Assembly: GCA_009782315.1 (NCBI GenBank)
Contig: WRJH01000007.1
Location: 1-32,408 of the forward strand
Length of the DNA: 32,408 nt
From: Alphaproteobacteria bacterium
GTDB taxonomy: Bacteria; Pseudomonadota; Alphaproteobacteria; Rs-D84
Direction: 5' to 3'
Positions 1 to 27,627 of this stretch are shown piece after piece (within the stretch, counting starts at the first letter, position 1; the number at the start of each line of letters is the position of its first letter). The notes beneath the pieces were generated by a model, which did not search any database, was not told the DNA's origin, and was given only the letters and a program-made list of their open reading frames with translations. The position numbers and the translations under genes are program-made.

Positions 1-1222
1 CCCTTTCCATCGGGATTTTCGCGCCCATGTCGGCGGCGGCGCGGCAAAGAAAGAATTTCGTCACGGTCAAATCGACCGGCAATTCGAACACTTGGTCCAT
101 ATATGGCGCGGCGCATTCCGAACATACCGCCCGGGCCGTTTTTTTCGACATGAATTTCAAATCGTCGGTCCGGCCGCATCCCGAACACTTGGTCAAATCC
201 AGCGCGTATCCGACAGAACGCAACAGCTGTATTTCCCAATCGATATAACGCTGCCCCCCACCGGAAACGCTGTGCGTTTCCGACTCCCCCCGATGGGGGG
301 AGTAATCGGGACCAATCACTCCCCCCTTGGGGGGAGTCGGCGCGCCAGCGCCGGTGGGGGGATATAAATATCCGCTTATCTCGCCCAGCACGTCGTTCAT
401 ATTCTTGAAAATTTCTTCGTTATCAAATCTTATTATCTTATAACCGTCACTATTTAATGCGCGGGTTCTTTCGACATCGTGCAATCGCCGGCCTTCTTCA
501 TAATGCTGTATGCCGTCCAGTTCTATTATCAATTTTTTTTCCAGGCATGCAAAATCGGCTATATATTTGTCCACCGGACACTGCTTTCGGAAAGCAACCC
601 CCAACTTGTTATCGCGCAGGTAATGCCACAGTAATTTTTCCGCATCCGTCATTTCCCGGCGAAGTTTTTGAGCGTTTGCCAGCGCGCGTTCTGTATATCT
701 TCGCTTTGGAGCATATATTTGCCCCCCACCGGAAACGCTGTGCGTTTCCGACTCCCCCCGATGGGGGGAGTAATCGGGACCAATCACTCCCCCCTTGGGG
801 GGAGTCGGCGCGCCAGCGCCGGTGGGGGGACGATTATCAAATTTCAGAAAGTCATTCACAAGACCGATTAACAATTCTTCCGTTGCATTAAACAGAACGG
901 AATCTTCGGCCCTTTCCGGCACCAGCGCGGAAACCAAAGCGAACGCGGAATTCATAAAAGACAACGCGGCCGCGTCACGCATAATCGGCGCCGCCAAATT
1001 CTTTTCCGATTCGAAATGAAACACGCCCAGTTGCGAATCCAGCCGCGCGTTCCACGACACGTTCCCGCATTGCCCGACCAAAGGCTTGTTTTTTCGGGCG
1101 ACAATCGCGCCCTTTATCATTCCGGCCAGAACACCGTGACGCTGCGTCAGTATTTTCGCAATCATGTCTCGTTCGCCGAATGGCCGCAGACCGATAATAA
1201 TGCCAATAGATTCCAGTTTCAT
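1..1222 (-). CDS. recO: DNA repair protein RecO, 3'-truncated by the window edge, with an in-frame insertion at 252-830
   Basis: Minus-strand translation from ATG at 1222: MKLESIGIIIGLRPFGERDMIAKILTQRHGVLAGMIKGAIVARKNK... (RecO N-term); after the insertion ...RYIDWEIQLLRSVGYALDLTKCSGCGRTDDLKFMSKKTARAVCSECAAPYMDQ... (RecO C-terminal domain with CxxC). Frame followed codon by codon through 832-353, and the second repeat copy is in the same phase (468 bp offset). Absent from the ORF track because it runs off the window. Confidence 0.85.
   Translation of the reverse strand, partial: MKLESIGIIIGLRPFGERDMIAKILTQRHGVLAGMIKGAIVARKNKPLVGQCGNVSWNARLDSQLGVFHFESEKNLAAPIMRDAAALSFMNSAFALVSALVPERAEDSVLFNATEELLIGLVNDFLKFDNRPPTGAGAPTPPKGGVIGPDYSPHRGESETHSVSGGGQIYAPKRRYTERALANAQKLRREMTDAEKLLWHYLRDNKLGVAFRKQCPVDKYIADFACLEKKLIIELDGIQHYEEGRRLHDVERTRALNSDGYKIIRFDNEEIFKNMNDVLGEISGYLYPPTGAGAPTPPKGGVIGPDYSPHRGESETHSVSGGGQRYIDWEIQLLRSVGYALDLTKCSGCGRTDDLKFMSKKTARAVCSECAAPYMDQVFELPVDLTVTKFFLCRAAADMGAKIPMER
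252..362. repeat. 111-bp multi-hairpin palindromic repeat, copy 2
   Basis: Identical to 720-830; outer arms CCCCCCACCGG/CCGGTGGGGGG, inner hairpins GGAAACGCtgtGCGTTTCC, ACTCCCCCCgatGGGGGGAGT, ACTCCCCCCttGGGGGGAGT. Confidence 0.95.
720..830. repeat. 111-bp multi-hairpin palindromic repeat, copy 1
   Basis: Direct repeat of 252-362, offset 468 bp (156 codons), same hairpin architecture. Confidence 0.95.
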
Positions 1223-8139: not shown

Positions 8140-8202
8140 CGTTTTCCGTTTGCCGTTTACCGGAATTATTGCGGTAAACGGAAAACGGAAAACGGAAAAC
8201 GG
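8140..8202. repeat. Inverted pair of period-7 repeats in the groES-groEL gap
   Basis: cgttttccgtttgccgtttaccgg / gcggtaaacggaaaacggaaaacggaaaacgg; unit cggaaaa. Confidence 0.9.
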
Positions 8203-10318: not shown

Positions 10319-10900
10319 TCAGAAATTCCACAGCGCGCCCAGGCCTATGAAATTATACCCGCCGTCAACCATCGTCGTGCCGCCGTTGTCGAAATGCTGT
10401 ACATAAATTTCCGCAGACCAGATTTCCGTAAACCGCCATCCGATAAATATTTTCGAACCGAACATCAGCAAAGAATCCATCCGGTCGTCATGATTAAGTT
10501 TTATATACATGCCCGCGCCCGCGCCGAAATAAAAATCATGCGACCACAGCAAAGCCGTATCCCAAGAAATTCCGCCGACGGGATTTGTGTAATTGGTCAT
10601 GCCGCTGTAACCTATATTGACGCCGATGTGCATATTCTGGCGGCCGGGCAGACGAAAGAATTCGAACGGCTGGCTGTATGTGAACATGACTTGTTCGAAC
10701 GGTTCCGACCGCCAGTCGCCGTTTGGAATCATATTGCGAATCGGGCCCGGGCCCACGCTGTGCCCGACGTGCAGTGCGATTTGGTTTTCCGTATCGTGAA
10801 AGAACGGGTTTTCGGCGCGCGCGCCGAAAACAAGGCATAAGGCATAGGGCATAAGGCATACGCGCACGGTAATCGTCAAAATTTTTTCCAATGATTTCAT
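10319..10900 (-). CDS. PagL-like (lipid A 3-O-deacylase/acyloxyacyl hydrolase-like) outer-membrane protein
   Basis: ...IALHVGHSVGPG...MFTYSQPFEFFRLPGRQNMHIGVNIGYS...FYFGAGAGMYIK...EIYVQHFDNGG...LGALWNF; C-terminal aromatic residue. Confidence 0.65.
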   Translation of the reverse strand: MKSLEKILTITVRVCLMPYALCLVFGARAENPFFHDTENQIALHVGHSVGPGPIRNMIPNGDWRSEPFEQVMFTYSQPFEFFRLPGRQNMHIGVNIGYSGMTNYTNPVGGISWDTALLWSHDFYFGAGAGMYIKLNHDDRMDSLLMFGSKIFIGWRFTEIWSAEIYVQHFDNGGTTMVDGGYNFIGLGALWNF

Positions 10901-10954
10901 ATCTTGTCCTTTGGTATAATATTTTATGCCCTATGTCTTATGCCCTATGCCCTA
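10832..10954. repeat. Inverted period-7 repeats flanking a gene start
   Basis: aaggcataaggcatagggcataaggcata (10832-10860) and tatgccctatgtcttatgccctatgcccta (10925-10954). Confidence 0.85.
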
Positions 10955-11527
10955 AAAACTCATTCCCACGGCGATGCCGACGCTGTTCATTCCGTTGTTA
11001 AGCTGGTTCAGATGGCCGTCGGAAAAATGCTGGGCCGCAAGTTCCGCATGAAACTGGCCGAACGAATATCCGACGAACACGCGTTCGCCCGCCATCCATT
11101 CCGACCCCAGAAAATCGTTTTTCTGTTCTTTTACAAACGGCCCTATTCCGGCGCCGAAATAGAAATTTCCGGGGGACCAGAATACTACCTCTTGGGACAG
11201 GCCGACTGCCCATTGGGCAATTCGACTTCCCGTCTGGACATTATATTCGCGGCGCATGGACATGTCTTTCGCGCCCTTTGTATCGCCCGTTATGCGCAGG
11301 ACATGAAGGCCGCGCCGCCCGGGCAGACGAAAGAAACTGTTCGGTTGGGAATACGTGAACATCAGCGTGGCGATCCTGTCGGCCCATCCGTCGATGGCGT
11401 AAAACCCGTCCATGCGGAAAGCGTTTTCAAATTCGCCGAACATGGGGTTTTGATGCGGGACAGATTCCGCGCGGGCGGATCCGACCGCAAGGCAAATTAT
11501 GAAGAAAATCAAAAACCTGTAAAACAT
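10952..11527 (-). CDS. PagL-like outer-membrane protein, second tandem paralogue
   Basis: Start chosen at MFYRFLIFFIICLAVGSARAES (signal peptide); shares LMFTYSQPxxFFRLPGR, NFYFGAGIGPFVKE, AAQHFSDGHLNQLNNGMNSVGIAVGMSF with its neighbour. Confidence 0.65.
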   Translation of the reverse strand: MFYRFLIFFIICLAVGSARAESVPHQNPMFGEFENAFRMDGFYAIDGWADRIATLMFTYSQPNSFFRLPGRRGLHVLRITGDTKGAKDMSMRREYNVQTGSRIAQWAVGLSQEVVFWSPGNFYFGAGIGPFVKEQKNDFLGSEWMAGERVFVGYSFGQFHAELAAQHFSDGHLNQLNNGMNSVGIAVGMSF

Positions 11528-11595
11528 GCATGGGCATTTTTGCCGAACGCCGGCAAAAATCACACAGGCATGAAATCCCAAAAATCCGAAAAAAA

Positions 11596-11652
11596 TGTAG
11601 GGGCGCAATATCTTGCGCCCTTATATAGGGTCGAATATATTCGACCCCTACA
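11596..11652. repeat. TGTAGGGGCG...CCCCTACA composite palindrome
   Basis: TGTAGGGGCGCAATATCTTGCGCCCTTATATAGGGTCGAATATATTCGACCCCTACA. Confidence 0.9.
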
Positions 11653-22809: not shown

Positions 22810-23289
22810 ATGAACGAAAAAGATTTGGATTTGGCGCTGGCATACATAAAGGACAAGAAAGTGCGAAAAGAAAATTACCATATAATAGACAACATGTACG
22901 AAACGTACTTTATAACCCAGGGCGATTCATTGGTCCAAAGAATGACATGCACCATTATATTGTATCTGTCGGATTTTCGGAAAAAATTATTGGGCCGCAG
23001 TATAGGCAGGATTACGGGCCAGGTAAAGCGGCTGGAAAACGAATCCGCTTTTTGCCATCCCGCCGACGATAAAATGCGGGCACGCATTGCCAATGCCAAA
23101 CATAACGCGATTCAAAAATTCGACAAAGCTTACGTCGGCGCGATGATCGCCCAGCATCGCATTGCCAATTCGGACAAAAAACCGGCGCCCAGAAAGATAG
23201 AATACCGTGCGGATATGACCGTGACCATACCGGTTTACAAACCCACCACTATGATTTATAAAATCCATCGGGCAAACCGAATAAAATAA
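22810..23289 (+). CDS. hypothetical protein, 159 aa
   Basis: ORF with aaagga upstream; no recognised domain. Confidence 0.6.
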   Translation: MNEKDLDLALAYIKDKKVRKENYHIIDNMYETYFITQGDSLVQRMTCTIILYLSDFRKKLLGRSIGRITGQVKRLENESAFCHPADDKMRARIANAKHNAIQKFDKAYVGAMIAQHRIANSDKKPAPRKIEYRADMTVTIPVYKPTTMIYKIHRANRIK

Positions 23290-23316
23290 AAATCCGCCAA
23301 ACGGCGGATTTTTTTA
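23288..23316. terminator. bidirectional intrinsic terminator
   Basis: aaaaatccgccaaacggcggatttttttatt between convergent genes. Confidence 0.85.
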
Positions 23317-23637
23317 TTTCTTGATTTCCAAGACTTTAACTTTGAACACAACCTCTTTCCCAGCCAGTTCGGCGGCGTGATATTGTTCCGGGAACGCCAG
23401 AACCACGTCGCGTTCCTCGCCTTTTTTCGCGCCCATCAATTGGTCTTCGAATCCGGGTATGAATTGGCCGCTGCCCAGCTTAAGCGGGAATCCTTCGGCG
23501 GTGCCGCCCGGAAATTGGACGCCGTCCAAAAACCCTGCAAAGTTAATCACGACAGTATCGCCGGATTTCGCGGCGCCATCGCACGCGCCCACAAACAGCG
23601 CGCCGCATAATGACATGGCTATTGATAATTTCTTCAT
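23314..23637 (-). CDS. FKBP-type peptidyl-prolyl isomerase-like lipoprotein
   Basis: [21 protein letters not shown] lipobox; [74 protein letters not shown]. Confidence 0.8.
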
Positions 23638-26443: not shown

Positions 26444-26680
26444 TTACCGGGCGGGCTCTTGGCAAGGAATACACTTAATTCCAGTAATACGAATAACCTC
26501 ATCGTTAACCATTATTAGACGGGCGTAAACTTGTTGGCATCCTCCTGGACACCCGGAAGCATCTTCACCTTTCAAAATTACTGTCTGTGGAACACCGGGT
26601 GTCTTTGCGGCAGACTCCTGGATTTTCTTAACCTGCGCGCCCCTACATTCAACCATTCGCTTTCGGGTGGGCTTTGGCAT
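26444..26680 (-). CDS. small Cys-containing ORF overlapping the xerC 3' end
   Basis: ...ILKGEDASGCPGGCQQVYARLIMVNDEVIRITGIKCIPCQEPAR; start uncertain. Confidence 0.3.
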   Translation of the reverse strand: MPKPTRKRMVECRGAQVKKIQESAAKTPGVPQTVILKGEDASGCPGGCQQVYARLIMVNDEVIRITGIKCIPCQEPAR

Positions 26681-27569
26681 ATTCCTTCATCACCATCGAC
26701 ATATCGACTTTCGTATAAAGCTGTGTCGTCGACAGCGACGCATGGCCCAGCAATTCTTGCAAATGCCGCAAATCAACCCCACCGGAAAGCAACGATGTCG
26801 CAAAAGAATGGCGCAGCGCGTGCGGCGTCACATATTCCGGCAATTGCAATTGATTCCGCAGATTTTCTATGACTTTTTCCGCCATTCGCGCGGACATCGG
26901 CAACCCGCGCACGGAACGAAACAACGGGCCGTTATCAAACGGCCGCGCGCGGACATATTTTTCAATCGCGTCAAACACGGCGGGCAATACGGGAACCAGG
27001 CGGTCTTTGTTACCCTTGCCGCGTATGCGCAGTACTTTTGGCCGCTTTGCCACGTCGGCGTCGGTCAGCGACAGCGCTTCGGAAATACGCAATCCGCATC
27101 CGAATATTAAAATGACCAAAGCATTGTCGCGCAATGCAACCCACCCCCCTTCGCCAAGGCTTCGGGGGGCAAGCCCGTCGCTAAGCGCGGCATCCGACAT
27201 GTTTTTCACATCCGATGCGCCGATTGCCTTTGACAGGGATTTTGGGACTTTCGGACTGCCCACCAAGGCAATCGATTCGTTTTTAAGCCCGCGCTTTTTA
27301 TCCATGTATTTGAAAAATCCGCGCACCGAAGACAGCGCCCGCGCCGTCGACCGGAACGACAATTTGCGCTTTGCGCGCCCGGCCAGCCATGCGCGAAACT
27401 GTAAAGTATCGACGCGCGCCAAATCTTTCGGGTGTAAATCCGCGCCCGCCCATTGTTCGCAAAAATTAATAAAATCGCGGACGTCCGATTCGTACGCCGC
27501 AACCGTGTGCGCGGAATACCGCCGCACATGGGCAAGATGGTTTATAAAATCAACAATCAGGTCGTTCAT
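26649..27569 (-). CDS. xerC: tyrosine recombinase XerC/XerD-type
   Basis: ALVILIFGCGLRISEALSLTDADV...RGKGNKDRLVPVLP...TPHALRHSFATSLLSGGVDLRHLQELLGHASLSTTQLYTKVD. Confidence 0.9.
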   Translation of the reverse strand: MNDLIVDFINHLAHVRRYSAHTVAAYESDVRDFINFCEQWAGADLHPKDLARVDTLQFRAWLAGRAKRKLSFRSTARALSSVRGFFKYMDKKRGLKNESIALVGSPKVPKSLSKAIGASDVKNMSDAALSDGLAPRSLGEGGWVALRDNALVILIFGCGLRISEALSLTDADVAKRPKVLRIRGKGNKDRLVPVLPAVFDAIEKYVRARPFDNGPLFRSVRGLPMSARMAEKVIENLRNQLQLPEYVTPHALRHSFATSLLSGGVDLRHLQELLGHASLSTTQLYTKVDMSMVMKEYAKAHPKANG

Positions 27570-27571
27570 AT

Positions 27572-27627
27572 AGGTATGAGGTAGAGGTATGAGGTATTTA
27601 GAGTTTGCCACCTCTTACCTCATACCT
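27572..27627. repeat. Inverted period-7 repeats between xerC and the LOG gene
   Basis: aggtatgaggtagaggtatgaggtat / cacctcttacctcatacct. Confidence 0.85.

Follow-up and report, generated by a model that had tools for sequence, protein, structure and literature searches.

A DUF559 nuclease between hairpin repeats, in frame within recO: a candidate small mobile palindromic element

Why does a nuclease domain lie inside RecO, between two identical hairpin repeats? The window, i.e. the whole analysed stretch of 32,408 nucleotides (contig WRJH01000007.1 of the alphaproteobacterial assembly GCA_009782315.1), starts within recO, which is on the minus strand with its ATG at 1222. The initial annotation described a DUF559 module between identical hairpin repeats, in frame in RecO, and this was confirmed by Pfam and frame analysis: RecO_N, DUF559 (E 5e-36) and RecO_C occur in a single chain of 407 aa. 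The lengths it gave for the insert (579 bp, 193 codons), the repeats (111 bp, 37 codons) and the repeat period (468 bp) were correct, and the recO frame is continuous as described, with no stop within the fused ORF. The features are listed below.

2..251, minus strand: C-terminal part of recO (RecO_C, by Pfam), in frame after the insert and truncated by the contig end
252..830, minus strand: whole insert, 579 nt or 193 codons, open in the recO frame and in no other
252..362, minus strand: 111-nt hairpin repeat, copy on the recO-C side, identical to the copy on the recO-N side
252..306, no strand assigned: hairpin unit A, outer
314..362, no strand assigned: hairpin unit B, inner, forming an inverted pair around DUF559 with unit A at 720-774
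374..685, minus strand: DUF559 (PF04480), Vsr/I-Bth0305I-like nuclease domain with the active-site residues of the family kept
720..830, minus strand: 111-nt hairpin repeat, copy on the recO-N side
720..774, no strand assigned: hairpin unit A, inner
782..830, no strand assigned: hairpin unit B, outer
831..1222, minus strand: N-terminal part of recO (RecO_N), up to the insertion in a loop (frame reading, Pfam and orthologue comparison)

No stop occurs in the minus-strand recO frame across the 579-nt insert, whereas each of the other five frames contains 1-12 stops. Positions 252-362 and 720-830 are identical 111-nt direct repeats with a spacing of 468 nt, as annotated, but each can be refined into paired hairpin units, A-14 nt-B, so that an inverted pair is present as well. 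The order in the window is A-B-DUF559-A-B: the nuclease is framed by an inverted B...A pair, and the outer A and B complete the direct repeats. The 111-nt repeat folded much better than its shuffles (z -8.4 as DNA and -10.1 as RNA). It is open in four of six frames; this is explained by composition (P 0.64), and the idea that the repeat is unusually open was rejected. Only some of the longer two-unit copies exceeded their shuffles in openness, and most copies of GC-rich hairpins that were measured had 4-5 of six frames open.

The junctions of the insert are Pro/Gly peptides coded by the hairpins. These junctions, together with Pfam scans without a Hint domain, led us to reject an intein, in agreement with the initial annotation, which had noticed no splice motifs. 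Group I/II introns were rejected as well (no Rfam match in five loci), and the open frame makes a bypass reading as needless as an intein or an intron. The exact end of the recO insertion was not found, and no target-site duplication was evident at recO or queA insertions, whose close empty sites are too variable.

More than 40 recO orthologues contain no domain at the insertion loop, which precedes a Y-x-x-W-E motif. The initial annotation had proposed a search for empty sites among orthologues, and these relatives provide them; a similar domain is not common to all RecO proteins. Four of the domain-free sequences belong to the same genus, three of them complete and one represented by its C-terminal part. 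One recO (L098, genome G019) has a short PPPGGG stretch at the loop. In a genome of another genus (G013), a related DUF559 was found in frame at the same place in recO, with hairpin peptides on both sides, and the two recO-embedded domains form one clade (support 99/86).

The element described by the initial annotation was supported by these data, but the phenomenon extends beyond recO. DUF559 was present in 66 of 143 genomes of the bacterial family, and in 33-34 of 97 places examined it was in frame within a larger gene. The hosts were recO (2), an N-terminal site (14) and a C-terminal site (10) in queA, queH (4), tsaB (2), truA and a POR subunit, and one further long DUF559-bearing frame had no identified host gene. 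Pfam confirmed recO (twice), queA, queH, tsaB, truA and POR as in-frame hosts. Two queA genes (L068 and L123) carry one DUF559 at each of both sites; empty queA has about 7 residues at the N site. Recombination between the repeats had been predicted to leave an in-frame scar, and hairpin peptides without DUF559 are indeed present in frame at the queA N site of genomes G154 and G125. G154 and G128 have a DUF559-less hairpin peptide at a third queA site. Outside the family, DUF559 shares a frame with asparagine synthase (asnB), whose amidotransferase domain is split around it, and with HsdM (hsdM), a DNA methylase and CbiG (cbiG). In a simple listing, many of the host genes serve tRNA modification or DNA/RNA processing (queA, queH, truA, tsaB, mnmE, miaB-like, recO, ligA, xseA, uvrD).

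In the DUF559 tree, copies from the queA N and C sites interleave, and well-supported branches force at least 8 and 7 changes. Free-standing copies mostly form separate lineages. The recO copies and the queH copies each constitute one clade at one site.

The nearest solved structures of the domain are 3HRL (NGO0050) and the homing endonuclease I-Bth0305I (Foldseek E 1e-4, TM 0.76 by target length), with Vsr lower. Both the nuclease fold and the catalytic residues of Vsr-like homing endonucleases were found in the window domain. The gene-embedded copies are in frame and retain their active-site residues: E67, D69, D82 and R85 (window domain numbering) are invariant among them. Median dN/dS, a simple count over few pairs, was 0.41 for embedded and 0.35 for free copies, which suggests that selection maintains the nuclease. 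Previous work tied a protein of the same domain family, Caulobacter VsrA, to methylation-dependent DNA damage and proposed a role in mismatch repair (PMC12907096). In the literature consulted, neither VsrA nor 3HRL is tied to repeats or mobility.

In the window and in most relatives, the nuclease is boxed by inverted hairpin repeats. Such repeats flank 82 of 95 DUF559 loci in the family, compared with none of 136 control pairs taken elsewhere in the same loci; a pair was scored when the match between the left 260 nt and the reverse-complemented right 260 nt exceeded that of all 475 shuffled pairs. Across the phylum, inverted flanks were found at 43 of 70 loci, compared with 2 of 30 controls, and they were also found at 45 of 53 loci in a set of named genomes, mostly Clostridia (5 of 140 in the pooled control of that run); the genomes compared are related and these counts are not independent. 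Many of the assemblies are in all likelihood short-read. Among six named records, four had inverted hairpin flanks (Azospirillum lipoferum 4B, Sphingomonas parapaucimobilis, Deinococcus sp. NW-56 and Picosynechococcus PCC 7002), and no inverted pair was scored in Neisseria gonorrhoeae or in one E. coli record. DUF559 and hairpin flanks co-occur in other Proteobacteria, Clostridia, Deinococcus and cyanobacteria too. The N. gonorrhoeae DUF559 has a similar GC-rich stretch on each side in the same orientation. This locus (L343; NZ_CP119142.1, 49599-49892), with DUF559 between similar GC-rich repeats, lies in a 2.17-Mb record deposited as a plasmid, and its DUF559 is probably NGO0050.

No convincing gene interruption was seen among 51 free-standing DUF559 elements with clear flanks. 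In one relative (G074), the whole unit, nuclease and flanks, has moved recently: four copies are present at four places, and the pairs compared are 89-98% identical over about 680-840 bp, inverted flanks included.

Related repeats are also dispersed without the nuclease, in the manner of MITEs. In the source genome (G000), the window repeat has copies at ~17 loci on other contigs. Most of these are solitary B units or B units followed by A after about 20 nt (B-20-A), and the B-20-A copies look like the element minus its gene. The same type of repeat is arranged as A-n-B in G013. This repeat family is present in G000, G013 and a further genome, G020, with one marginal match in G007, and is absent from four genomes of the same genus. 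Two of the three genomes with the repeat have a DUF559 of the recO clade; in G020 the repeats occur but DUF559 was not found. The second DUF559 of G000 (contig C20) is flanked by an unrelated, likewise dispersed hairpin family, CTACCCCGGAA...GAAGGGCAT, other copies of which are on contigs C18 (L028, L103, L104), C53 (L030), C6 (L105) and C1 (L107).

Many of these hairpins are in frame within genes, whose names beyond Pfam domains are our reading. In G000 they were found in ligA, an exo/endonuclease gene, mnmE, rsmH (at a contig end), lnt, a methyltransferase gene, fmt, lepA, xseA, a terminase-like gene and uvrD, and those of the second family in polA and a prmC-like methyltransferase gene. The corresponding genes are tatD, a miaB-like gene, a recN-like gene, ftsJ, rnhB, a UvrD-type helicase gene and rsmH in G013, and tsaD, der (twice), a uracil-DNA glycosylase gene, two further radical-SAM genes, polA, a miaB-like gene (twice) and dnaX in G020. 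Three hosts (rsmH, the miaB-like gene and polA) were each struck in two genomes at the same or a similar place. Sixteen hairpin loci spanning no gene yielded no convincing out-of-frame disruption, with one of uncertain status (L287).

Several other repeats were observed in the window. A xerC/D-like recombinase gene (26649-27611) contains a short GC hairpin, GCCCCCCGAAGCCTTGGCGAAGGGGGGTGG, at 27125-27175 on the minus strand, which reads LAPRSLGEGGW in frame and is perhaps another in-frame repeat remnant; its only match elsewhere in the genome is 18 nt long. A 27-nt inverted repeat (8140-8194; 93% complementary, 1 nt apart) is located just before the start of a groEL-like gene, with GGAAAAC repeats after it. 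At 1708-1744 and 23282-23318 there are near-identical hairpins that resemble terminators, with T runs behind them. Two neighboring minus-strand genes (10319-10900 and 10952-11608) encode similar small proteins, apparently tandem paralogues, and have a common 47-nt repeat.

We think it probable that the recO insert is a small mobile palindromic element, in which hairpin units surround one DUF559 nuclease gene, inserted in a recO loop. In our best reading, the Vsr/I-Bth0305I-like nuclease is the only enzyme of the element, and its enzyme-less derivatives resemble Rickettsia palindromic elements (RPEs). The nuclease would cut its own hairpin ends and/or an unoccupied target, and repair (or strand transfer) would then copy or insert the element at the cut. 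It may also act in trans and move enzyme-less hairpin copies. Intragenic insertions would persist only in a tolerant loop, and only with no stop and a length divisible by three; because GC-rich hairpins leave most frames open, such survival is likely. Targeting is not required to explain in-frame residence, since out-of-frame copies would not survive in useful genes; it is partly a survivor effect. RecO would be produced as a single polypeptide that carries the nuclease as an additional domain, and the fused protein presumably works. A frame-keeping, RPE-like, nuclease-bearing element, as initially annotated, is borne out by the comparative data, from which we infer that it is self-mobilising.

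Other explanations have to be considered. DUF559 might act by homing only, cutting one allele of a gene and being copied in by repair, with the hairpins as independent repeats that landed nearby. The fold match to I-Bth0305I, the restriction of recO and queH copies to one clade and one site each, and the reuse of one site in recO, and by hairpins in rsmH and the miaB-like gene, agree with this. Recurrence at one site in recO, queH and rsmH also fits a tolerant loop. However, one lineage occupies two distant queA sites and interleaves in the tree, inverted hairpin flanks are the rule even around free-standing intergenic copies, and nuclease and flanks moved jointly to four places in G074. We consider homing alone unlikely. 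It is more doubtful still that the nuclease is a passenger, i.e. that the hairpins are spread by another enzyme (RAYT or a host process) and DUF559 is carried along or otherwise employed, e.g. in mismatch repair. The VsrA data could be read in this way, and G020, with many repeats of the window family and no DUF559, is also a point against the mobile element proposed here; in addition, DUF559 is missing from the genomes with the most CGTC REPs. Against the passenger explanation, no RAYT was found in G000, G020, G074 or G135, one genome has two unrelated hairpin families, each around a DUF559 of its own, and nuclease gene and flanks move together. For G000, an 88% complete assembly, this means that no HUH tyrosine transposase (PF01797) was found, and G013 had one weak Y1-transposase match.

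The two remaining explanations concern recO itself. Both domains are in one open chain, as would be expected if RecO had gained a useful nuclease domain. However, the insert is patchy within clades, more than 40 orthologues lack it, and the same domain, joined by hairpin-coded linkers at either end, also occurs in enzymes of tRNA modification and metabolism; in view of the orthologues and the other hosts, a simple RecO fusion was rejected, and we regard a functional one as highly improbable. An artefact of short-read assembly might be suspected from the identical 111-nt repeats and the nearby contig end, and other contig ends also fall in these repeats. Misassembly is disfavored because G013, of another genus, has an in-frame DUF559 at the same place in recO; with further in-frame insertions in dozens of genes from many genomes, we regard an artefact as barely conceivable.

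The mobile element proposed here shares properties with several known systems. RPEs are likewise short palindromic repeats that reside in frame in unrelated genes and are translated through (review PMC10969869), and palindromic repeats in frame in unrelated protein genes were found here. However, RPEs have no known enzyme, whereas most DUF559 genes in our data sit between such repeats, and the window unit differs from RPEs in sequence and end tags. RPEs of R. conorii have a CGTC tag with a hairpin and a CCA tail (PMC3733652); this arrangement is absent from the window unit and occurs in 11 of 97 family loci (control 2 of 145). A 2013 survey concluded that CGTC REPs, a group that includes RPEs, "apparently lack a dedicated transposase" (PMC3733652). 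CGTC REPs and DUF559 co-occur in genomes (odds ratio about 3, p 4e-5, not corrected for relatedness). Membership in the CGTC REPs was nevertheless left as a lead, as the window unit has no such tags and the richest CGTC genomes have no DUF559. Single hairpin units and inverted pairs, dispersed and in part intragenic, are shared with REP/REPIN systems with RAYT (GTAG) and with the enzyme-less CGTC REPs, and REP/RAYT systems also have the enzyme gene flanked by repeats (PMC3733652). The enzyme here, however, is a PD-(D/E)XK/Vsr-like nuclease and not an HUH tyrosine transposase.

Homing endonucleases of the I-Bth0305I type (EDxHD) have the same nuclease fold, and the reuse of sites in recO and queH is reminiscent of them. 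Unlike in Vsr-like homing endonucleases, no intron or intein surrounds the domain, which comes with hairpin terminal repeats and enzyme-less derivatives. With insertion sequences and MITEs the element shares terminal inverted repeats that enclose a single gene, spread in several copies and deleted derivatives; for example, the four G074 copies are at unrelated places in one genome. In contrast to these elements, copies inside genes keep the frame and no target duplication was found. No DDE, HUH or serine/tyrosine recombinase was seen in the element. We found no published link between DUF559 and repeats in the open-access papers that were searched.

We give about even chances to a broader proposal: that DUF559 proteins are the mobility enzymes of undescribed, bacteria-wide, hairpin-ended transposable elements with a Vsr/EDxHD-type nuclease as their sole enzyme, that the deletion derivatives of these elements include many orphan palindromic repeats, intragenic ones too, and that a branch in this alphaproteobacterial family lives in frame within host proteins. 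The spread of intragenic palindromic repeats has been an open question since their discovery in Rickettsia, and DUF559 is a concrete candidate for the enzyme, being widespread, small and amenable to tests in laboratory strains. If so, the large DUF559 family would gain a likely function, a nuclease type would be added to the enzymes that move DNA, and there would be a route for new loops and domains to enter proteins.
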